Assembly: GCF_019880385.1 (NCBI RefSeq)
Contig: NZ_CP082273.1
Span: 3,100,001 to 3,164,000 of the forward strand
From: Nocardioides coralli
GTDB lineage: Bacteria; Actinomycetota; Actinomycetes; Propionibacteriales; Nocardioidaceae
Length of the DNA: 64,000 bases
Direction of reading: 5' to 3'
The notes below the pieces were generated by a model, which was given only the letters and a program-made list of their open reading frames with translations, was not told the origin of the DNA and did no database searches. Position numbers and translations under genes: made by a program. Below, in pieces: positions 29,569-39,468 of the stretch; the first letter of the stretch is position 1; every line of letters begins with the position of its first letter.

Positions 29569-29644
29569 GGGCCCTTAGCTCAATTGGCAGAGCTCCGGAC
29601 TTTTAATCCGTTGGTTGTGGGTTCGAGTCCCACAGGGCCTACCA
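29569..29644 (+). tRNA. tRNA-Lys (TTT anticodon)
   Basis: A complete cloverleaf: acceptor GGGCCCT pairs with AGGGCCT (first pair G-U), D-arm GCTC/GAGC, anticodon loop CTTTTAA, T-arm GTGGG-TTCGAGT-CCCAC. CCA is encoded. The anticodon stem ends in a C/T mismatch at 27:43, not unusual. It marks the left edge of a lower-G+C accessory region. Confidence 0.95.
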
Positions 29645-30007
29645 GCATTAGCCCAGGTCAGCGGCCTGCGCCTCCGACCTGGGATTCGCCGCGCGAGCGT
29701 CCCTGCTACGCACCTGCTAGCACCTGGGCTCGAATGGGTTCACGAGAGTCCTCCACCACCAGGCTCGCGTGGCTTTGGTCTTGTCCTCATGTGCCCGTTC
29801 CGTTGACGAAACGCTCCCTCAACGCCTCAGACGCTGAGGGTGCGCTGGCCCGCGCTGGCGATCGCGATTCCGAAGTCGTGACCTCGCGTCGCGGCAATGG
29901 TTCCCGCTTCGAGCGGATGCAGCTACGGTAAGGGTCAGTCTCTAGAGGCGGCCGACGTTGTGCCGCCGAGGCCCCGGTTTGAGCTGGCTTGGGCGCCGGA
30001 AGTCCGC
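29645..30007. other. Gene-poor stretch after tRNA-Lys
   Basis: 363 bp between the tRNA and the endonuclease gene. I see no convincing gene, no integrase fragment and no repeat of the tRNA 3' end. Base composition starts to fall here. Confidence 0.6.
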
Positions 30008-30811
30008 TCACCATTCAACGTCCCTAGCGTCCGCGACGACCCTCCCCCCCTCCAACGCGCGGGCCAGGAGCCCGTCGTCGTGGCTTCGAAGGCTCTCAAA
30101 TTGGAGTCCTGTCCGCATCTCCAGGTCGGTCAAGGTCACTTGGTGGGTCTTGAACTCATCGAGGTAGTCCATGGTCTCGATGCGGTCAGGGTTGAGATCT
30201 TGTGAAAGTACGAAGCAGCGGAACTGCACCTGTCCTCCGACTGCATAGGCAACGACCTTCCAGTGATCTTTGGGGATCTGCCTGCCGCGATAGACAGGAT
30301 CGGAGGCGGCAAGAACTGGACCCCCGAACAAGGTCACTCGCCGACTCTCGATCTTGTCGAGCTCAAGCACTGCATTTTCAAGCAGCCCCCACACTCCGTC
30401 GCGCCTCGACTGATTGAAGTCACGCATTTGAGGAGTGATGTTCGTGTAGAAGAAGGAGTCGCGGTTGCCGGCTAAGGCCTCGGGCAGCGTGCCCCACAGC
30501 AGGTCAGCTCGTCGCGCGATGTGGCCTCTGTCTAAGTGGTTGTCGAGGTACAAGTCGTTGAGGGTTTGAAGCTCGTCAGAGAGGCGGTCGTCAGCTCGGA
30601 AGTCGACGCGATGGATGCCGTCCGCACTGAAGAGGCGCCGGCCGTCAATGTTCCAAGCGACCCACCACGCGAGCCGTCGCTCGGTGTTCAACTGCAGGGA
30701 GAAATGCACATAGTCAAGCTGCGCCGTTGCCATCCCGGGGGCCGAGGGCACCGCGAGGGGTTCGCGCAGAAAGTCTGGGTCGAAGCCAACCGCCTCTGTG
30801 CCCTGATTCAT
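30008..30811 (-). CDS. DNA/RNA non-specific endonuclease (NUC1 family), cytoplasmic type
   Basis: A 267-aa nuclease of the beta-beta-alpha-metal fold. The signature DRGHIARRADLLWG (residues 94-107; catalytic His97) and the metal-binding Asn region YTNITPQMRDFNQ (122-134) are both intact. VTLFGGPVLA and IPKDHWKVVAY follow. There is no signal peptide, unlike secreted NucA/EndA enzymes, so it probably acts inside the cell on self or phage nucleic acid. The ATG overlaps the stop of the preceding small gene (ATGA). G+C is clearly lower than in the core. A toxin or abortive-infection effector is an inference. Confidence 0.85.
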   Translation of the reverse strand: MNQGTEAVGFDPDFLREPLAVPSAPGMATAQLDYVHFSLQLNTERRLAWWVAWNIDGRRLFSADGIHRVDFRADDRLSDELQTLNDLYLDNHLDRGHIARRADLLWGTLPEALAGNRDSFFYTNITPQMRDFNQSRRDGVWGLLENAVLELDKIESRRVTLFGGPVLAASDPVYRGRQIPKDHWKVVAYAVGGQVQFRCFVLSQDLNPDRIETMDYLDEFKTHQVTLTDLEMRTGLQFESLRSHDDGLLARALEGGRVVADARDVEW

Positions 30812-31140
30812 CCTTTCCCGGGCCGACTTCCCTTAAAGTTGCGGTGATAGCAGACCTGAACGATTACTCCGACGCAGACCTCCACACACCCGCCGAGCGG
30901 ATGAGTTTCGCCCTCAGGGAGCTCCTTGGGCCGCAGCCGCGCCTTCAGGTCGACGGTCACCTCATCCGCGGATGCTTCTCCCGACTCTTCCATCTGCTTG
31001 GCAGCCGCCTCGAGAATCATGTTGTACATGAGCTCTCCGTATTCGGCGTCCCCAGCGTTGCCAGCATCTGGCGCTCCGTCTGCGTTCTGGATTCGCGTAT
31101 CGATGTGACCGCGGAGGTAGTCGGGTGTCAGTGAAGGCAA
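30808..31140 (-). CDS. Small protein coupled to the NUC endonuclease, unrecognised
   Basis: A 110-aa ORF with an acidic middle region (GDAEYGELMYNMILEAAAK, MEESGEASADEVTVDLKARL) and Cys-rich end GGCVEVCVGVIVQVCYHRNF. I use the TTG at 31140 with AAAGGA 8-9 nt upstream; a TTG at 31161 would add seven residues. It is translationally coupled to the endonuclease, so a partner, inhibitor or sensor role is the natural inference. No family recognised. Confidence 0.6.
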   Translation of the reverse strand: MPSLTPDYLRGHIDTRIQNADGAPDAGNAGDAEYGELMYNMILEAAAKQMEESGEASADEVTVDLKARLRPKELPEGETHPLGGCVEVCVGVIVQVCYHRNFKGSRPGKG

Positions 31141-31161
31141 GGTCCCAGTCCTTTCAGGCAA

Positions 31162-31723
31162 GTGTGACTCACGTCACCCTAACTAGGGATGTTCCGGGGC
31201 GTAAGGAGTCAGACCTACCGAGTTCAATTCGTCGAGGGTCCAAGAGAGTCGGGTCACACTGCCCTGCCGCGGCGTCGACCGACGGCAGATAGTCGGAATG
31301 AACCTGGACGGTCGGCTGGGCGGACAACGAGCGGGCGGTGCGTCCTTAACGCGGTTCGGGCAGTCGAAGCGCCCGCGACTGGGGTTCCCGCAGCCCCCGT
31401 TCTGCCTCGGCATTGCGCGATCACACGCCGTGCGTGCCGGTGGCGCATCGACGAACGTGGCTTCGTGCTGTCTGCAAAGGTTCATATCATCGCGTGCGTG
31501 GAGGAGCTCGCCACTCAGTTCTTACCTGGAGACCTAGATATTGACTGCCCGGCCCGTGCCTTCAACCTGTGAGTCAGGTGGTCAGAGGTGGCTGATTGCG
31601 CAGACCACGGTGGTGTGTCCTTGCTGTCGGGTTCGCGTCCGACTGGTGGACGACCGTTTAGGCATGCAAACGGCTGGTGAGGTGCTCGAGCGTGCTTCGG
31701 TACTTGCCCTCGCCGGAGTGACC
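31162..31723. other. Intergenic stretch in the accessory region
   Basis: About 560 bp upstream of the endonuclease operon. Open frames on both strands (for example 31189-31572) lack a known family, a ribosome site or consistent codon use. It probably contains the operon promoter and decayed sequence. Confidence 0.5.
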
Positions 31724-31909
31724 CTAGCCGTCCACGCGATGTCGCTGCACCCGGCTTGCGACCACCTCGATCAGTGGCGCGCGCCCTCCCAACAGGCGAT
31801 CGCTCGCGAGGTTATAAACCGTACCTACGACAACGCCAAGAACATCGGCAGCCTCATGTGCAGACAACCAGAATGCGCAGCAGACTAGGGCGATGTTGGG
31901 TCCAAGCAC
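31724..31909 (-). CDS. Short excisionase/MerR-like HTH ORF, possibly decayed
   Basis: A 61-aa frame from a GTG. Its middle, WLSAHEAADVLGVVVGTVYN followed by LASDRLLGGRAPLIEVVASR, matches the pattern of excisionase-type helix-turn-helix proteins (LxxxEAAxxLGVxxxTVYxL then a DVxxY-like helix). It lacks the usual R-x-G-R strand, so it may be decayed. There is no integrase beside it. If real it would be the only mobility-type gene left in the island. Confidence 0.4.
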   Translation of the reverse strand: MLGPNIALVCCAFWLSAHEAADVLGVVVGTVYNLASDRLLGGRAPLIEVVASRVQRHRVDG

Positions 31910-32071
31910 TGCCTCTTACCCACAAGGGCCCACTTGTTGCGCGACCGAGGGCTTTGCCGGTGCCATCGATAGAAACGCAGCCTAAACCGTGGCGGATTCC
32001 CGGCTGCTAAGACGCTCCGGTGAACGAGCTACTTCCGGCGGGGTCCCCCCGGGGACGAGAGGGAGTCGGTC

Positions 32072-32869
32072 CTAGTTGCTCGCCACCGTTGACCGCATCT
32101 CCGCAACTCGTGCAACGAAGAACAGCCAGGCAGGAGTGAATCCATGGTCCAAGTGGTCGACCACGATGCCTTCTGGGTCGGCGGATTCGGCGATAGCGCA
32201 GTAGATGGTTTGACGCTCTGGGTCCTGCGCCGCGTACCACACCATTTTGCGTGCGCGGAACGTCGAGGTGTCGCCTACGACCGCGGCAACGCCAAATATC
32301 TCGTCCCGCCAGTCATTCCACGCAGACGAATGAACGTCCTCCGGTGAAAGGCCAGACTGGACTGGTTGCCGGAACTTAGGGTCTGCTAGGTTCGCGCGAA
32401 AAGTGAACTCGAACATTGTGTCTGCAGTTATCAGCAGCTGAGTCGCGCCCAGCTCCTCCTGGTCCTTGTCGCTTGCTGCTGTCGCCAGCCTTACCAAGTG
32501 GTCCCCAATATGCGACTCCGAAGAGTGCTGCTTCTTGTACACGGTCAGCCTCCAGGCTCCCTTCGCGAACAGCGTGCCCGCTATTTGCCGTAGTAAATAC
32601 TCAGGTTGCGCAGTTCGTATACCTTGCCGCAGCCGCTGATTCTCAACTAACCGTCGCTCCACATCTCGCTCATCGCGTCTCAAGAGGACGAGGCCAGCGA
32701 CTGCAAGCACCAGGCTCACCAAGATCGCATAGGGACGAGCCTGTTCCGGAATCCAAGGAAGCCACTCGAGCGCTGGGATCACGACGACTGGTATGGCAGC
32801 CATCGCCGCCCACAATCTGCGTCGCAGGGATGACGGCGCCCGCTCTTCTCCAGGGTCGATGTCAGTCAC
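32072..32869 (-). CDS. Two-TM membrane protein coupled to a GmrSD-like nuclease
   Basis: A 265-aa protein. Residues about 18-38 and 46-64 are two membrane segments (IPVVVIPALEWLPWI, YAILVSLVLAVAGLVLL). After a charged linker (RRDERDVERRLVENQRLRQG, possible coiled coil) comes a cytosolic domain of about 180 residues (WRLTVYKKQHSSESHIGDHL, IYCAIAESADPEGIVVDHL). This looks GAF-like, but I cannot assign it. The start overlaps the stop of the DUF262/DUF1524 gene by ATGA. A sensor or membrane effector partner is inferred from coupling. G+C is low, as in the rest of the island. Confidence 0.7.
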   Translation of the reverse strand: MTDIDPGEERAPSSLRRRLWAAMAAIPVVVIPALEWLPWIPEQARPYAILVSLVLAVAGLVLLRRDERDVERRLVENQRLRQGIRTAQPEYLLRQIAGTLFAKGAWRLTVYKKQHSSESHIGDHLVRLATAASDKDQEELGATQLLITADTMFEFTFRANLADPKFRQPVQSGLSPEDVHSSAWNDWRDEIFGVAAVVGDTSTFRARKMVWYAAQDPERQTIYCAIAESADPEGIVVDHLDHGFTPAWLFFVARVAEMRSTVASN

Positions 32870-34983
32870 TGCTCATCATCGAAAGTGTCGCCGGTGTCAT
32901 CGGGATCGCCGTCCTGGCGATCTGCCTTAGCCGTAAACTCGCTCAATTCCTCCGACTGCATTCTCTTGCCGAGGTCGAATTGTGCCCGGTCTTGGTCAGC
33001 CACCCTCGACTTGAGCTCACCCGGTAGCCAAGTGGGGATTGCCTTGCTTTCCGTCCGAATTAGCCGGGCAAGTGTTGCGTCGAGCGTTGCAACGATCTCT
33101 CGAATGTCGTCATGGGCCGCACCTAGAACGGCAACCAGGTCGTCCTCGGTGACCCACCGGGTCACAGGCAAGCTCTGTAGCAGAGACTGCAGTCGATCCC
33201 GCACCGAAGCTCCGGACTCGTCCTGACTGGCGTCAGCGGAGCTGGCCAGCGGTTGATGATGGAACCTTTCGAGGATAGAGTTCGCCAGGGATTCACTACG
33301 GGCTTGGATATCCGCCGGATAGAATCGCGGCATTTCGGCGAGTGCCCTGTTTAGCCGCAAAGCTGACTGATCGAAGAACTCCTGGGTCTTCACCTTGAAA
33401 CTCGAGTTACCCATTCGCTGATTATTGTCAGTCAAGGTCAGATTGCCGAGTGTGTGTGTGAGGGCCTCCGCGTCAGAGAGGTCAATATCGGCCGACTCGA
33501 AGTACGCCCGCCACTCCCCGGAAAGCGACTGCGGCATGACATGCTCGATTTGGCTTTTGGAAAGGTCGGCCGACTCCATCCCGGGGAGGCGTTCCTCAGC
33601 AACTGAGAGTAGAAACTTCACGTACCGGCGCGCAGAGGCGTAGATCGGATTCCCGACGACCGCGGCACGTACCTGATCATCTGTGGGCCAGTAGTACCCC
33701 TGCTTGCTCAAGAGCAATCTCATTCGCTCGCTTACAGACTCATTGGCGCCGCGCTGCGCGAGATCGTGCGCCACGGGAGTTAGGAGCCGGTTAAGCTGGT
33801 TGGTGGGAACGCCATTGAGAGTACGCTTGACAAGGTAACTCATGAGGACGTCGATGGCGGCCGCGGCGTCGCTTTGCTCGATGTCACCCGCCATGGCCGC
33901 TTTCAAGAGCCAAAGGGCAACGGGGGTAGCTGGTTCGGATCGCCAATCCTTGAGGGTCTGCAGAGATTCGAGCAGTTCACGTGCGATGCGACTATCGGCT
34001 TGCCCGCGAGCGGGGTCCCGCACGATGAGGAACAGGAGATGATCGTCGTACATCTCCTGGAGAACGCCCAGAGCGTGGTCGTTTCGTTCTTGAGCGGGCA
34101 ATGCGTTGAGAGTGACTCGAAGCCGCTTCTCGAACTTCGAGAAAAGGTCGTCCCGAGAAGTCTTGGGGTTGATCGCGACCTCGCGAGACCACAGAAAAGT
34201 GACGAACTCGCGATCAGGAGACTTCGATCGCGGAGTGACGAGGTTGACCTCCATCGGCACCCAGTACTCGCTGTGCGCTTCGTCAGCAGCGCCTGTGCCA
34301 ATGTGGTGAAGCACTTCATTGCGAACGAGATCGGCAGCTGAGAGGTCCATGCCTTTCGAATTCAACGTATTGAAAATGCTATTGACCGAATCGCCGGTTT
34401 TGGTTGTTATCTCCACTAGCAGCATGTTAAGCAGCAGCGTATTCTCTAGACGGTCCAGCGATAGATCATCAGTACGCATGGCGCGTTCGATAGCCATCTT
34501 GAAAAAATTGTACGCCACCCCAATATCCCCTGTCGGGTCCTGGAGTCGTACAGTTCGCTCGTAGGCTTCGCGGTCGAGTTTGGTGGGGACGAGGCGGTCC
34601 GGGAAGTCCGTGCTGAACGGATTACGCAAGTATTGATCGTCGATGGAGCCTGGATTCCAAGTGGGGTCGGCTTCCTTCCTGACGTCGCGTAATGCGGCGA
34701 GCAGGATCAGGATGGTTGTCAACCGTTGCTGGCCATCAATAACCTGGTGTCGCATTAGCGTCGATGCGGGGCCGAGCGCTGGATGAAGCACGACGCTTCC
34801 GAGGAAATGGCCGTATAGAGCCTCGGGGTCGTCTGGGTGCTCGAGGCCGTACTCGATAAGCAGGTCATTCCACAACTGTTCCCATTGTTCTTTGCGCCAC
34901 GTGTATCGACGCTGAAACGTGGGGATCAGGAACACCTTCGATCCCTGGATCAGCCGATGAACTGTGATTGCGGTCGCCTTCAT
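32866..34983 (-). CDS. GmrSD-like type IV restriction protein (DUF262 + DUF1524)
   Basis: A 705-aa single-chain protein. DUF262 (GmrS-like, ParB/Srx fold) spans roughly residues 1-230, with FQRRYTW (23-29) and the nucleotide-binding DGQQRLTT (83-90). DUF1524 (GmrD-like HNH) has IEHVMPQS (479-486), LGNLTLTDNN (512-521) and GNSSFKVK (525-532). A further 150-residue C-terminal region ends in a very acidic tail. Known relatives (GmrSD, BrxU, SspE) cleave modified phage DNA or sense modification. Base composition is much lower in G+C than the neighbours (about half in the line at 34321), indicating acquisition. Confidence 0.9.
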   Translation of the reverse strand: MKATAITVHRLIQGSKVFLIPTFQRRYTWRKEQWEQLWNDLLIEYGLEHPDDPEALYGHFLGSVVLHPALGPASTLMRHQVIDGQQRLTTILILLAALRDVRKEADPTWNPGSIDDQYLRNPFSTDFPDRLVPTKLDREAYERTVRLQDPTGDIGVAYNFFKMAIERAMRTDDLSLDRLENTLLLNMLLVEITTKTGDSVNSIFNTLNSKGMDLSAADLVRNEVLHHIGTGAADEAHSEYWVPMEVNLVTPRSKSPDREFVTFLWSREVAINPKTSRDDLFSKFEKRLRVTLNALPAQERNDHALGVLQEMYDDHLLFLIVRDPARGQADSRIARELLESLQTLKDWRSEPATPVALWLLKAAMAGDIEQSDAAAAIDVLMSYLVKRTLNGVPTNQLNRLLTPVAHDLAQRGANESVSERMRLLLSKQGYYWPTDDQVRAAVVGNPIYASARRYVKFLLSVAEERLPGMESADLSKSQIEHVMPQSLSGEWRAYFESADIDLSDAEALTHTLGNLTLTDNNQRMGNSSFKVKTQEFFDQSALRLNRALAEMPRFYPADIQARSESLANSILERFHHQPLASSADASQDESGASVRDRLQSLLQSLPVTRWVTEDDLVAVLGAAHDDIREIVATLDATLARLIRTESKAIPTWLPGELKSRVADQDRAQFDLGKRMQSEELSEFTAKADRQDGDPDDTGDTFDDEQ

Positions 34984-35458
34984 TACTCTCCGTCACGATT
35001 GTGCGTAGCTGGAAGAAGCACGCGATGAAACTCGTCGGTTCAGTCCTGGTCTGGCGTCGAGGGCGGACGTCGTGGAGCACTTGGTAGCAGGAACCCTCCG
35101 CTGGGAGCCTGCTCGATTGTCAGGGCAGGGAGTGAGTCCCGACGCGGATTGCACGACTTCCGAGTCCCGAGCATGGGGCTATTCATACCCCACCTGGGGT
35201 CCAGTGTGTTCCGCGGACGGGTCCGACAGTCGCGGCGCGTGCTTGGGCATCATGATGAGCAGACATGGAAGCGGTCCGACCTACTGGGGTGGGAAGAGCC
35301 GCTCATTGCGCGCGTGCTTGGCCATGGCCAATGCTCCCGGTCAACGCCCGTCCGATCTGCCAACAGAACTAGGTAGATCAGGACATCGCCAGCTCGGCTG
35401 ATAGGCGGCCGCGCAGGTCAGATGCTGGCTCGCTCAACGCGAGCTCGACCTCATGGTC
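34984..35458. other. Intergenic stretch in the accessory region
   Basis: About 475 bp upstream of the GmrSD-like gene. It should hold that gene's promoter. The open frame at 35072-35401 has no recognisable family or ribosome site, and I do not call a gene. Confidence 0.5.
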
Positions 35459-35572
35459 TTAGCTCAACTGCAGCTCCGCTAAGACCTCGCCGGCTTCGGC
35501 GGCCATAGCCATTGCCAGATTCCTGGCGGTATGGAACGGCTCCCAATCGCGCCTACCTCGAAACGCGTGAAG
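35459..35572 (-). pseudogene. Fragment of a MazG-like nucleotide pyrophosphohydrolase
   Basis: The minus strand encodes LHAFRGRRDWEPFHTARN, then LAMAMAAEAGEVLAELQLS and a stop. This corresponds to the first helices of MazG-like (dCTPase-type) proteins: RDWxxFHTxxNLAMALAxEAGELLxxxQW, with the metal-binding EAGE motif. A stop precedes it and another follows after 37 codons, so about two thirds of the domain is missing. It is antisense to the first codons of the frame at 35531, so that frame's start is doubtful. Confidence 0.65.
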
Positions 35573-36253
35573 CTACTGCAGGAGACCGGCGAGCGAGTCA
35601 CTCATGCCTGCTCACCGTGCCTCGACGGGCTGCCGTGCCGCGTCGGCCAGGTCGGGGAGGGCGTGATCGAGATCGGCTACGGACCCGTCACTGACGCTGT
35701 CCGCGAGCTGAGCCTGACGTGCGTCCCGAGCACGATCCACACCCTGACGGTCACCAAGAGCGCGACCGACGGCGGGACAGTCTCGGGCGGCGCCATCAGC
35801 TGCGGCACGACGTGCTCAACCGTCCTGCCGGGCGGTGACCAGGTCACGTTGACCGCGACCCCGACGGCCGGCTACCGCTTCGCCGGCTGGAGCGGCGCCT
35901 GCACGGGAACGGGTGAGTGCACGGTGACCATGAACAGCGACAAGACAGTTGCGGCGACCTTCATCGAGCAGGTCACGCTCAGGGTGGTTCTCCTACAGCA
36001 GGGACACCGGACCATGGCCATGGTCGCTAGTCCGGAGCCGAGCCTCAGTCCCGATCCGTGCACCACCACCGGATCCGGGACCCAAAGGTCGTGCACTGCG
36101 ACCTACGACGTCGGTACGCAGGTCACTCTCACAGCCAGCACGCTCGGGTTTTCCGTGAACTGGCTCAACGGGCCGTGCACAGACACGAACGTGACCTCGT
36201 GCACTCTCACGCTTGACTCCGATATCGACCTGGCGGTTCAGGTGGCCGGCTAG
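35531..36253 (+). CDS. InlB/Listeria-Bacteroides-type repeat protein remnant
   Basis: A 240-aa frame. Residues about 70-145 form a classic repeat: LTVTKSATDGGTVSGG, CGTTCSTVLPGGDQVTLTAT, AGYRFAGWSGACTGTGECTV and MNSDKTVAATF. A second, degenerate copy is near the end (GTQVTLTASTLGFSVNWLNG). Such repeats belong to large exported surface proteins. Here there is no signal peptide, and the first 14 codons are antisense to the MazG fragment, so this is probably the 3' remnant of a longer gene. A GTG at 35663 is an alternative start. A 15-bp hairpin follows the stop. Confidence 0.5.
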   Translation: MERLPIAPTSKRVKLLQETGERVTHACSPCLDGLPCRVGQVGEGVIEIGYGPVTDAVRELSLTCVPSTIHTLTVTKSATDGGTVSGGAISCGTTCSTVLPGGDQVTLTATPTAGYRFAGWSGACTGTGECTVTMNSDKTVAATFIEQVTLRVVLLQQGHRTMAMVASPEPSLSPDPCTTTGSGTQRSCTATYDVGTQVTLTASTLGFSVNWLNGPCTDTNVTSCTLTLDSDIDLAVQVAG

Positions 36254-36270
36254 CAGCTCGCAGCCAAGGT

Positions 36271-36306
36271 CGTCCGGGCCGTGCGGCGGGGCGCACGGCC
36301 CGGACG
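36271..36306 (+). terminator. Hairpin after the repeat-protein gene
   Basis: A 15-bp perfect stem (CGTCCGGGCCGTGCG at 36271-36285 and complement at 36292-36306) with a 6-nt loop, 17 bp after the stop at 36253. There is no T-run. G+C is high again from here. Confidence 0.7.
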
Positions 36307-36339
36307 GCGTTCTGAGCTCGGCCCTTGCCACGGAAAGCC

Positions 36340-36392
36340 GGTGGTCTGGACCGGGCGTAACGTGGCCCGGGTCACACCGTTGAGCAGGCATG
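36340..36392 (+). repeat. Duplicated leader block, copy A
   Basis: This is nearly the same as 37978-38030: GGTGGTC, a GACCGGGCGTAACGTG core, the palindrome and CGTTGA, ending at GGCATGGC. In both copies the ATG lies exactly 50 bp after the first base of the block. Confidence 0.85.
36362..36375. promoter_or_regulatory. Imperfect palindrome, candidate CRP/FNR-type site (copy A)
   Basis: GTGGCCCGGGTCAC has one mismatch to the perfect palindrome of copy B. It retains the GTG-N8-CAC core of actinobacterial CRP sites. It ends 14 bp before the small-ORF ATG. Confidence 0.5.
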
Positions 36393-36542
36393 GCAATCAT
36401 GGGGATGGCAGCCCCCGAGGTCCGTGGACCGGTGCAGGGGCTGGACTTGCTGGAGAAGTGGCTGGAGTTCCGGGACAAGTGCCTCGACACGGTGGCTATC
36501 GACCACCCGGAGCACGTCCGGATCGCCGACCCGTACCGCTGA
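36390..36542 (+). CDS. Small ORF A, 50 aa, paralogue of small ORF B
   Basis: The product reads MAIMGMAAPEVRGPVQGLDL, then LEKWLEFRDKCLD and a 17-residue tail ending in ADPYR. ORF B (38028) shares the leader sequence and the MAI-GMAAP start, then DLL-x-x-WL. The shared upstream block and conserved residues argue that both are real small proteins and not chance frames. A weak AGCAGG lies before the ATG. It points at the 3' end of the nucleoside transporter on the opposite strand (36 bp between stops). Function unknown. Confidence 0.65.
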   Translation: MAIMGMAAPEVRGPVQGLDLLEKWLEFRDKCLDTVAIDHPEHVRIADPYR

Positions 36543-36578
36543 CCGGGGCGGGACTCCCGCCCCGACCAGCGACTCCGG

Positions 36579-37913
36579 TCAACCGATGAGGATGCCCGCG
36601 ATCGCGGCACTCATCAGGTTGGCCAGCGTCGCCGCGAGCACGGCGCGCAGGCCGAGCGCCGCGATGTCGGGGCGGCGCTCGGGCGCGATCCCGCCCAGCC
36701 CGCCGAGCAGGATGCCCAGCGACCCCAGGTTCGCGAAGCCGGTGAGCGCGAAGGTGATGATGGCGGCGGTCTTCTCGCTGTAGCTGCCGATCTCCGGCCC
36801 GAACCCGGTGAACGCGACGAACTCGTTGACCACGACCTTCTGACCCAGGAAGCTGCCGGCCTCCGCGGCCTCGGCCCACGGCACGCCGATCATCGACATC
36901 ACGGGCGCGAAGATCCACCCCAGGATCTGCTCGAAAGTCAGGTCCTCTTGGCCGAACCAGCCGCCCACGCCCCCGACCGCGAGGTTGATCAGCGCGATCA
37001 GCGAGATGAAGGCCAGCAGCATCGCGCCGATCGTCGCGGCCAGCCGCAGGCCGTCGGCCGCTCCCGATGCCGCCGCGTCGATCGTGTTGCGGTGGTGCAG
37101 CCCGTCGGACTCCGCCTCCCCGCGGTCCTCCTCCTCGCGCGCGTCGTCCTCGACCTCCGCGGGCGGTACGTCGGCGGAGCTGTCCCCGGCACCGGCTGCC
37201 CGCGCCGACGAGGTGGAGGACACCAGCTCGCGCTCCCTCGCCACGGCGTCCGGGTCGTCCTCGGGAACGATGATCTTCGCCATCAGCAGCGCGCCCGGGG
37301 CCGCCATGAAGCTGGCGGCGATGAGGTACTCCAAGGGCGCGCCGAGCAGCGAGTAGCCGACGAGCACCGACCCCGCGACCGTCGACAGACCTCCCACCAT
37401 CACCGCGAAGAGCCCCGATCGGGAGAGCCCCGAGACGAAGGGGCGGATCACCAGCGGCGCCTCGGTCTGGCCCACGAAGATGTTGGCGGCCGCGTTGACC
37501 GACTCGGCGTGCGACGTCCCGAGCAGGCGCCCCAGCGCCCCACCGAGCCACGAGACCACCCGCTGCAGGACCCCCCAGTGGTAGAGCACGGCGGTCAGGG
37601 CGGCGAAGAAGACGATGACGGGCAGCACCTGGAAGGCGAACACCACGCCGTCCCCCTCCTCGGGCAGCACCGGCCCGAAGAGGAAGCCGATCCCCTCCCG
37701 CGAGGAGTCGATGACCGCCTGGACGCCCCGCGAGGCCGCCTCGAGACCGCGCTGGCCGAGCGACCACGAGAGCACGATGACGCCGAATCCGACCTGCAGC
37801 CCCAGCGCGGCCAGGACGGTGCGCCAGCGGATGGCCTTGCGGTTGCTGGACAGCGCCAGCGCGATCACCAGCAGACCGGCCATGCCGCCGATGCCCCACA
37901 CGACGTCGATCAT
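36579..37913 (-). CDS. Concentrative nucleoside transporter (CNT/NupC family)
   Basis: A 444-aa membrane protein with about ten helices. It has the CNT motif NIFVGQTEAPLVIRPFV, and VNEFVAFTGFG and TFALTGFANLGSLGILLGG near the end. An acidic cytoplasmic insert of about 60 residues (DDAREEEDRGEAESD) follows the motif region. It probably imports nucleosides by proton or sodium symport. I chose the ATG at 37913 because GGAGG is 8 nt upstream; an in-frame GTG at 37922 would overlap that site. It is flanked on both sides by the paralogous small ORFs. Confidence 0.92.
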   Translation of the reverse strand: MIDVVWGIGGMAGLLVIALALSSNRKAIRWRTVLAALGLQVGFGVIVLSWSLGQRGLEAASRGVQAVIDSSREGIGFLFGPVLPEEGDGVVFAFQVLPVIVFFAALTAVLYHWGVLQRVVSWLGGALGRLLGTSHAESVNAAANIFVGQTEAPLVIRPFVSGLSRSGLFAVMVGGLSTVAGSVLVGYSLLGAPLEYLIAASFMAAPGALLMAKIIVPEDDPDAVARERELVSSTSSARAAGAGDSSADVPPAEVEDDAREEEDRGEAESDGLHHRNTIDAAASGAADGLRLAATIGAMLLAFISLIALINLAVGGVGGWFGQEDLTFEQILGWIFAPVMSMIGVPWAEAAEAGSFLGQKVVVNEFVAFTGFGPEIGSYSEKTAAIITFALTGFANLGSLGILLGGLGGIAPERRPDIAALGLRAVLAATLANLMSAAIAGILIG

Positions 37914-37977
37914 TCGTTCCACCTCCGGGTCACGTGGCGACCGAGCGTGCCACGACGACCACCCCCAGCGGCACCCC

Positions 37978-38030
37978 GGTGGTCCAGACCGGGCGTAACG
38001 TGACCCAGGTCACCTCGTTGACGGGGCATG
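37978..38030 (+). repeat. Duplicated leader block, copy B
   Basis: This matches 36340-36392 with the same spacing to an ATG. It contains GGTC-CA-GACC (37982-37990) and the palindrome GTGACC-CA-GGTCAC. Confidence 0.85.
38000..38013. promoter_or_regulatory. Perfect palindrome, candidate CRP/FNR-type site (copy B)
   Basis: GTGACC-CA-GGTCAC: 6-bp perfect half-sites, also TGA-N6-TCA and GTG-N8-CAC, as in CRP/FNR-family operators. It lies 14 bp before the ORF B ATG. Confidence 0.55.
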
Positions 38031-38159
38031 GCTATCGGAGGCATGGCGGCACCGGTCACCACCAGGCCGCTCCAGACCATGGACCTGCTGCAGCGGTGGC
38101 TCGCCTACCACGAGCCCCGGACGCAGCGGCAGGACGGCGAGCGCCCGGTCACGGTGTGA
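38028..38159 (+). CDS. Small ORF B, 43 aa, paralogue of small ORF A
   Basis: The product reads MAIGGMAAPVTTRPLQTMDL, then LQRWLAYHEPRTQRQDGERP and VTV. It is related to ORF A in the N-terminus and the DLLQRWL helix (DLLEKWL in A). Its stop overlaps the stop region of the convergent PHP gene by 11 bp. It is expressed from the duplicated palindrome-bearing leader. No known family; a short amphipathic helix is the only structural hint. Confidence 0.65.
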   Translation: MAIGGMAAPVTTRPLQTMDLLQRWLAYHEPRTQRQDGERPVTV

Positions 38160-39468
38160 GCCACCACGGGCTCGTGTAGGCGATCCCCCGCAGGTTGCCG
38201 GGGTGCCCGTCGGGCCCGGGCGTCTCGTTGCGCGCGTGCGGGTCCGCGACCCGCAGCAGCACCCAGTCACCGTCCGCTACGTCGAGCGGCACCGTGACGG
38301 CCACCAGTCCCCCCACCCGGAAGTCCCGCGTCGCCACCACCTCCGGCACCCTCCCGCCCGGCCGCAGCACCTGTACCGACAGCATCCGGCCACGCCAGCT
38401 GTCGTCCCGGGCCAGGTCGAGCACGAAGGTGACGTCACCCCGTCGCAGTGGCAGCGCTGACCCCATCGGCGCCGGCCGACGACCCTGCACCGCCGCCACG
38501 GCGTCCACCCGCAGCCCCGAGGTCCGGGTCGCGAAGAAGCGCCGGTCACGCATCGCAGCCTTGACGCCGGCCCGGGTGTGCTCGGCGACCCACAGCCCGG
38601 TCCGGCCCTTGCCCTCCGGGTGGCCCCAGTCGGTGCCGTGCTCGTCGGTGACGCCGGTGATGCCGGTGCGCCAGCCGGCGTCGAGGCAGGCCGAGAGCGG
38701 CGAGCTCCGGCCGTCGGCGTACCCCTCGAAGAGGTAGTCGTCGGTGCGGTTGAACATCTCCAGGGAGACCACGCGGTCGCGCAGCCGGGGGTCGAACCGG
38801 AACTCCTCGAAGCGGCCGGGCTCGCGACCCGGGTGGTTGAAGCCCGCGATGCCGTCGCCGCCGCCGTCGAGCACCAGCCCGGGTTCGCGACGGAGCCACT
38901 CGAGGAAGGGCGCCATGAGTCCCGACTGCACGACGTCGGTGTAGTGCTCGCTGAACCACACGTTCATGTGGCCGAGCAGCGGGTGGGACCACTCGAAGCC
39001 GCGGACGGCCGTGAACGCCCCGTCGACGTCGGCGGCGTCGGCATAGGCGGCCGTGCGGTCCCAGCCCTGCGGCGTCAGCCCGCCCACCTGGTGGTAGTCC
39101 TGCGGCATCGCGTCCTTGATCAGGTCCCCGAGCGCGTTGTCGGACATGGTCGCGTGGTCGGTGAGGGCCGCGACGTCGAGCCCCGCGCTCCGCATCGAGT
39201 CGAAGGCAAGAGCGGGGTCGCCGTCGCCGTCGGAGAGCAGGGTGTGGTTGTGCAGGTCGGCGTGCACGAGGGTGCGGCCGGCCGTGATCCGCGAGCTGCG
39301 GGCCGCGCCCGTCGCCGGCCGCGATCCGGGGGCCCGTGCCGCGGCGGTCTCGGGCGAGGTCAGTCCGGCGAGCAGCAGGCCGGTGCCCGCCGTCGCCAGC
39401 GCCGTACGTCGGGTGAGCGGTCGGTGGGGCGGGGTGCCGTGGTGGTGGCCGTCGCACATGCCCGGCAC
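38149..39468 (-). CDS. TAT-exported PHP-domain metal-dependent phosphoesterase
   Basis: A 439-aa protein. The signal LTRRTALATAGTGLLLAGL has a twin-Arg motif. The PHP domain begins with VHADLHNHTLLSDGD (metal-binding His residues) and has LDVAALTDHATMSDN, AVRGFEWSHPLLGHMNVWFS and a late ITGVTDEHGTDWG. PHP proteins hydrolyse phosphoesters with a trinuclear metal site. Export across the membrane is inferred from the signal, so the substrate is extracellular. The start is the GTG at 39468, or an ATG 3 codons later. It is convergent with small ORF B. Confidence 0.82.
   Translation of the reverse strand: MPGMCDGHHHGTPPHRPLTRRTALATAGTGLLLAGLTSPETAAARAPGSRPATGAARSSRITAGRTLVHADLHNHTLLSDGDGDPALAFDSMRSAGLDVAALTDHATMSDNALGDLIKDAMPQDYHQVGGLTPQGWDRTAAYADAADVDGAFTAVRGFEWSHPLLGHMNVWFSEHYTDVVQSGLMAPFLEWLRREPGLVLDGGGDGIAGFNHPGREPGRFEEFRFDPRLRDRVVSLEMFNRTDDYLFEGYADGRSSPLSACLDAGWRTGITGVTDEHGTDWGHPEGKGRTGLWVAEHTRAGVKAAMRDRRFFATRTSGLRVDAVAAVQGRRPAPMGSALPLRRGDVTFVLDLARDDSWRGRMLSVQVLRPGGRVPEVVATRDFRVGGLVAVTVPLDVADGDWVLLRVADPHARNETPGPDGHPGNLRGIAYTSPWWLTP

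Follow-up and report, generated by a model that had tools for sequence, protein, structure and literature searches.

Two small-protein genes behind candidate sigma-BldN promoters in Nocardioides coralli

The two genes and their surroundings

The window, that is, the whole analysed stretch of 64,000 nucleotides, belongs to the genome of Nocardioides coralli, a single contig of 3,527,132 bases (3.53 Mb). Two short units were found in it on the plus strand, at 36343-36542 (copy A) and 37981-38159 (copy B), with a nucleoside transporter gene between them (Table 1). The 53 bases upstream of the two start codons are identical in 43 positions, and further upstream only 30 of the next 100 bases coincide. 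The initial annotation of this DNA had reported near-identical blocks at the same distance from the start codon, ORFs of 50 and 43 amino acids, and the common protein motifs MAI-x-GMAAP and DLLxxWL; all of these are present. When copy B and its upstream DNA were compared with the complete genome, only copy B itself and copy A were returned (E 6.3e-13).

Table 1. Features of the two units and the gene between them (positions in the window)
Feature	Position	Strand	Remarks
Small palindrome, copy A	36343..36352	+	GGTC-TG-GACC, just 5' of the -35 element
-35 element, copy A	36356..36361	+	CGTAAC, exact sigma-BldN motif
Near-palindrome, copy A	36362..36375	+	GTGGCC-CG-GGTCAC in the 16-bp spacer; operator or chance
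-10 element, copy A	36378..36383	+	CGTTGA, ATG 6 nt downstream
Copy A gene	36390..36542	+	50 aa, MAIMGMAAP...DLLEKWLEF...HPEHVRIADPYR; three metagenomic homologues
Hairpin after copy A	36544..36564	+	9-bp perfect G+C hairpin right after the stop; candidate terminator, no T run
CNT-type nucleoside transporter	36579..37922	-	PF07662, PF01773, PF07670; neighbour, between the copies
Small palindrome, copy B	37981..37990	+	GGTC-CA-GACC, just 5' of the -35 element
-35 element, copy B	37994..37999	+	CGTAAC
Palindrome, copy B	38000..38013	+	GTGACC-CA-GGTCAC, perfect, in the 16-bp spacer; operator or chance
-10 element, copy B	38016..38021	+	CGTTGA, ATG 6 nt downstream
Copy B gene	38028..38159	+	43 aa, MAI and DLLxxWL kept, HPxHVRIxDPYR end absent; paralogue of copy A

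Ten neighbouring ORFs were compared with Pfam. Matches were observed to the nucleoside transporter, DUF3604, nucleotide-disulphide oxidoreductase, InlB-repeat, GmrSD and nuclease families, and four ORFs had no match. Both small ORFs converge 3' to 3' with ORFs on the opposite strand, and the stop of copy B overlaps one of these by 11 bases. Accordingly, the two ORFs do not have the appearance of leader peptides, there being no downstream gene on the same strand that such a peptide could control. To the left of the two copies lies a stretch of lower GC content (29569-36253) that starts beside a tRNA-Lys gene. It encodes a DNA/RNA non-specific endonuclease (30008-30811), a GmrSD-like restriction protein (32866-34983) and an InlB-repeat protein (35531-36253). 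No att-type repeat was found at the tRNA-Lys gene and the low-GC stretch with 11-mers.

The assignment of the gene between the copies to the CNT-type nucleoside transporters was confirmed. However, its suggested link to the small genes did not survive comparison with relatives, as no such units occur in the 29 relative transporter loci scanned. Transporter matches with E <= 1e-30 are present in 29 of 209 genomes of the same genus, N. coralli included. The relative loci contain no exact or one-mismatch promoter of the kind described below, and a single match with two mismatches (L093). Without composition correction, translated matches to the small proteins at transporter loci had E values as low as 0.007 (copy B, L089) and 0.019 (L078). 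Those in L089 lie in a repeated stretch and lack the MAI start, and the best value with default statistics was 0.34, so no match at a transporter locus was counted. The stretch concerned (positions 1208-1446 of L089) is a dispersed repeat upstream of the transporter homologue that gives rise to spurious translated matches to copy B. The link to the transporter looks incidental.

Coding evidence and distribution

The two ORFs resemble each other more closely at the protein level than random change would produce. Copies A and B share 15 of their first 29 residues, and seven of these 15 are encoded by different codons. Over the 29 codons 34 of 87 bases differ, 15 of them in third positions and 10 and 9 in the other two. 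In frame, the pair has a BLOSUM62 score of 81; the remaining five frames score 2-43, and when equally many changes are placed at random the mean score is 33 (P about 5e-5, one draw in 20,000). Both ORFs are very likely protein-coding paralogues.

Three homologues of copy A were found (P0002, P0003, P0004). All are metagenomic proteins of 48-51 amino acids with 62-74% identity to copy A, and all keep MAI, DLLxxWL and HPxHVRIxDPYR. They stem from contigs of 1.1-1.3 kb and are known here as proteins; the promoter was read for copies A and B. In the alignment of the five members, MAI, P9, P14, DLL, WL, P40 and V43 are present in all sequences, and HPxHVRIxDPYR in four, copy B being the exception. 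None of the five members belongs to a Pfam family, copies A and B have no NCBIfam match, and the best match among PDB sequences (E 0.21) is an unrelated kinase. The claim of an undescribed small-protein family is very likely correct, given the three metagenomic homologues, the in-frame conservation and the lack of a match to any known family.

One possibility is that only copy A is a working gene and that copy B is a decaying duplicate, since copy B has no HPxHVRIxDPYR end, which the four other members share, and as a query of its own found no homologue. However, copy B has an exact promoter and an N-terminal half that agrees with that of copy A in the manner of coding sequence, although seven of the 15 identical residues differ in codon. 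We regard decay of copy B as possible but doubtful; it is compatible with the preferred reading, that is, coding ORFs behind a promoter of the sigma-BldN type. The arrangement of conserved N-terminal and C-terminal blocks around a variable middle resembles that of precursors of ribosomally made, modified peptides (RiPPs), in which an N-terminal leader precedes a C-terminal core. However, no typical modifying enzyme was found among the ten neighbouring ORFs by Pfam, four of them being without a match, and the C-terminal block contains no cluster of Cys, Ser or Thr. A RiPP precursor seems very improbable.

The units are short, and copy A ends in a strong hairpin, with a folding energy of -24.2 kcal/mol for the region 36540-36582 (z -3.3). 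These features would suit small or dual-function RNAs in which the ORF is incidental. However, the copy A RNA (36390-36535) shows no more structure than shuffled sequences (z +1.0), no Rfam match with E <= 1 was observed in the region 35500-39000, conservation follows the protein frame, and the full-length homologues differ by whole residues. An RNA function in place of the protein is thus very unlikely. The stretch downstream of copy B has no excess of structure (z 0.0).

The family appears to be narrowly distributed. No member was found outside this genome and the three metagenomic proteins among 215 genomes of the genus and 391 genomes of the order. In 341 genomes of the family, the promoter followed by a MAI-type start occurs only at the two sites described here; likewise, the exact upstream pattern has no occurrence in GTDB genome contigs and viral contigs. 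Pattern scans gave 75 matches in GTDB and named-genome contigs, and 77 and 29 in viral contigs, none of them confirmed; such scans reach only relatives that contain the chosen peptide words. Plasmids and phages contain no relative of P0002 detectable by tblastn. Weak matches in four genomes (G045, G185, G350, G452) were dismissed as chance, three of the four reading through a stop codon; the one in G452 is partial and lies in a 68-aa frame. An origin from a mobile element was considered and rejected, there being no relative in viral contigs, plasmids or phages.

The promoter motif and BldN

In Streptomyces, the regulon of the ECF sigma factor sigma-BldN includes bldM p1, the chaplin and rodlin genes, and rsbN. 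Both copies in N. coralli have the structure CGTAAC-N16-CGTTGA, followed after 6 nt by ATG. According to a passage on BldN in PMC2375139, this factor 'recognizes the motif CGTAACN16CGTTGA', which is letter for letter the motif of both copies, with identical -35 and -10 elements and the same spacing of 16 bp; the same passage gives the bldM promoter as the sole site of BldN known at that time. The most fitting reading of the conserved block is a promoter with the sigma-BldN -35/-10 pair as its core. As such, and with 6 nt between its end and the ATG, it is expected to lie outside the transcript, and the term 'leader' used for it initially is not appropriate.

The pattern GTAAC-N15-17-CGTTGA has two sites in the genome, both of them here, versus about one expected from the base composition of the window, so this count proves little by itself. 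For the motif with a start codon at the proper distance and up to two mismatches, which may fall in the ATG, ten sites were found in the N. coralli genome and none with the reversed control. One of the ten precedes the gene for a secreted trypsin-like protease; over 252 residues this protein shares 58% identity with a protease that has the same promoter in a relative.

In a drawn sample of 209 genomes of the genus, the exact motif with an ATG 5-8 nt downstream has 66 sites in 54 genomes; the reversed control has none. The spacer is 16 bp in 32 sites and 17 bp in 34. The distance from the -10 element to the ATG is 6 nt in 34 sites, 7 nt in 19, 5 nt in 12 and 8 nt in one. By their N-terminal signatures, 44 of the 66 sites head five recurring groups: large secreted proteins (12 sites), which look like penicillin acylases, proteins of 84-90 aa (11), DUF5667-type proteins (8), trypsin-like proteases (8) and small secreted proteins (5, one cut-short frame included). 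Two further sites are copies A and B, and the other 20 fall outside these groups; some of them have very short frames and may be leadered genes or chance matches.

The 84-90 aa proteins, most of which start with MSALHTLDVRLYE, are encoded directly behind the BldN-type promoter (loci L013, L016, L026, L031, L034, L038, L039, L040, L120, L122, L138). The member in L034 matches no Pfam family at E 0.01 and no NCBIfam model at E 1. They resemble the proteins described here in being small and in having the same promoter class with similar spacing, but no sequence similarity to copies A and B was apparent by eye.

The host genome contains an ECF sigma factor gene (G000:C1:342512-343063) whose product has the BldN family as its top NCBIfam model, with 172 bits versus 105 for the next model and below the curated cut-off of 206. 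The best PDB sequence is 6dxo_A, with 167 bits versus 63 for the next; we take 6dxo to be the BldN-RsbN complex. By these matches, the host genome encodes a BldN homologue. At E <= 1e-60, bldN was found in 139 of 147 genomes of the genus.

The motif is also tied to bldN itself. The sigma factor gene was located in 28 of 30 bldN loci, and in all 28 a CGTAAC-N17-CGTT.. sequence lies 3' of it, at a distance of 4-97 bases and with at most two mismatches; 13 of the 28 are exact. In N. coralli (L053) the sequence after bldN is CGTAAC-N17-CGTTGG, with one mismatch, and is not placed for leaderless expression of the following gene as read. The product of that gene is 46-49% identical to DUF5667-type proteins of relatives. 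A DUF5667-type protein is encoded after bldN in five loci, L053 included, by tblastn; one of the five was confirmed by Pfam, PF18915 having been tested on one relative (L036). The position of the motif just after the host bldN is analogous to that of the BldN-dependent promoter of rsbN in Streptomyces, as described in a section of PMC4255298, and the DUF5667-type neighbour is presumably an RsbN-like anti-sigma protein. The part of this 2013 review that deals with distribution confines convincing bldN matches to morphologically complex genera; bldN followed by its own type of promoter occurs almost throughout the genus as sampled here, and is perhaps more widespread than that statement suggests. 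Our literature searches found nothing on Nocardioides with BldN beyond this review, and no report on DUF5667.

The host genome also encodes a protein with five chaplin domains (PF03777, all over the cut-off) in a single frame of 607 aa (L188, G000:C1:2669176-2669976). No sigma-BldN-type site with at most three mismatches was found upstream of it on its strand.

Palindromes, proposed control and possible function

The palindromes noticed in the upstream blocks were confirmed. GTGACC-NN-GGTCAC is intact in copy B and deviates at one position in copy A; GGTC-NN-GACC is present in both. The former had been described as CRP/FNR-like. A regulator of this type, or another dimeric one, acting via GTGRCC-NN-GGTCAC would leave the match to the BldN motif incidental, and the palindrome does occupy the same place in both copies. 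Besides, GTGACC-NN-GGTCAC with at most one mismatch has four sites in the window versus 0.54 expected from shuffles, two of the four being those of copies A and B. However, the looser pattern GTGA-N6-TCAC is not enriched, with two sites in the window versus 1.07 expected, and one half-site of copy A is broken (GTGG), so that two intact, enriched CRP half-sites are not found in both copies. Moreover, the palindrome lies between the -35 and -10 elements, so that a protein binding there would be more likely to prevent transcription, and the hexamers flanking it belong to a class of promoters that recurs across the genus. Within that class, palindromes with arms of at least 5 bases occur in the spacers of 8 of the 66 promoters, compared with a mean of 4.0 in shuffles. 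Control by a CRP/FNR-type or other dimeric regulator in place of BldN is accordingly improbable.

Palindrome arms upstream of the promoter were found in 15 of the 66 cases versus 8.9 in shuffles. Spacer palindromes seem to be no clear feature of this promoter class, and the upstream signal is weak. A second regulator acting besides BldN is possible. The BldM site TCACcCgnncGgGTGA, as given in a part of PMC4125116, differs from the spacer palindrome and was discarded as a candidate; MtrA sites are described as loose direct repeats in a passage of PMC5650626. In four loci (L019, L020, L021, L029) a larger palindrome, GGGTAGTC...GACTACCC, lies beside the -35 element, and it is imperfect in L020 and L021. 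It occurs at genes of secreted proteases in three of the four loci and is placed like the small palindrome of copies A and B.

The best explanation of the data, for the promoter and the coding part, is a sigma-BldN promoter match in front of coding ORFs, and we hold it with considerable confidence. It is supported at the level of sequence by the promoter match itself, the tie between the motif and bldN across the genus, the coding type of conservation, and the paralogy of the two genes. What stands from the initial interpretation is a paralogous coding family with a common promoter; the leader, the CRP/FNR operator and the link to the transporter found no support.

The following mode of control is proposed. 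Firstly, each unit would be a stand-alone gene for a protein of 43-50 aa, transcribed from an ECF sigma-BldN promoter. Secondly, since the -10 element ends 6 nt before the ATG, the mRNA is predicted to start at or next to the ATG and to be nearly leaderless. This would resemble leaderless genes of actinobacteria, the spacing of 6 nt being the commonest in the class (34 of 66 sites, with 5-8 nt searched); about 21% of S. coelicolor mRNAs are leaderless according to a passage of PMC4895711. Finally, the RsbN-like DUF5667-type product of the gene after bldN would presumably keep BldN in check; BldN, once active, would activate both small genes together with those of the secreted proteases and the anti-sigma protein. 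Differences from the Streptomyces regulon are in the targets, which here are two small proteins that match no known family, and in the chaplin-domain protein, which has no such site upstream at up to three mismatches.

The helical moment of QGLDLLEKWLE is 0.67, and that of the corresponding segment in copy B is 0.59, both computed without a control; no long hydrophobic stretch is seen in the small proteins. Because of the moment of 0.67 and the lack of such a stretch, we tentatively suggest a small soluble adaptor that may bind a partner via the amphipathic DLLxxWL helix, with HPxHVRIxDPYR as a second contact that is absent in copy B; this role is rather uncertain. More speculative still is the view of an undescribed leaderless sigma-BldN microprotein family (MAI - DLLxxWL - HPxHVRIxDPYR) that would act in the BldN programme as an effector or adaptor specific to the lineage, and in which the paralogue without the C-terminus may antagonise the other.

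What emerges is a new family of small proteins with a narrow distribution, probably part of a regulon of a known kind. The promoter match would tie this orphan family to a developmental sigma factor known by name, and a single deletion would suffice to test such control. Almost all genomes sampled from the genus encode a BldN homologue, and the sigma-BldN promoter class can be read genus-wide. The promoter with the ATG at its proper distance provides a search string for more leaderless small genes, which may have been missed by automatic annotation.
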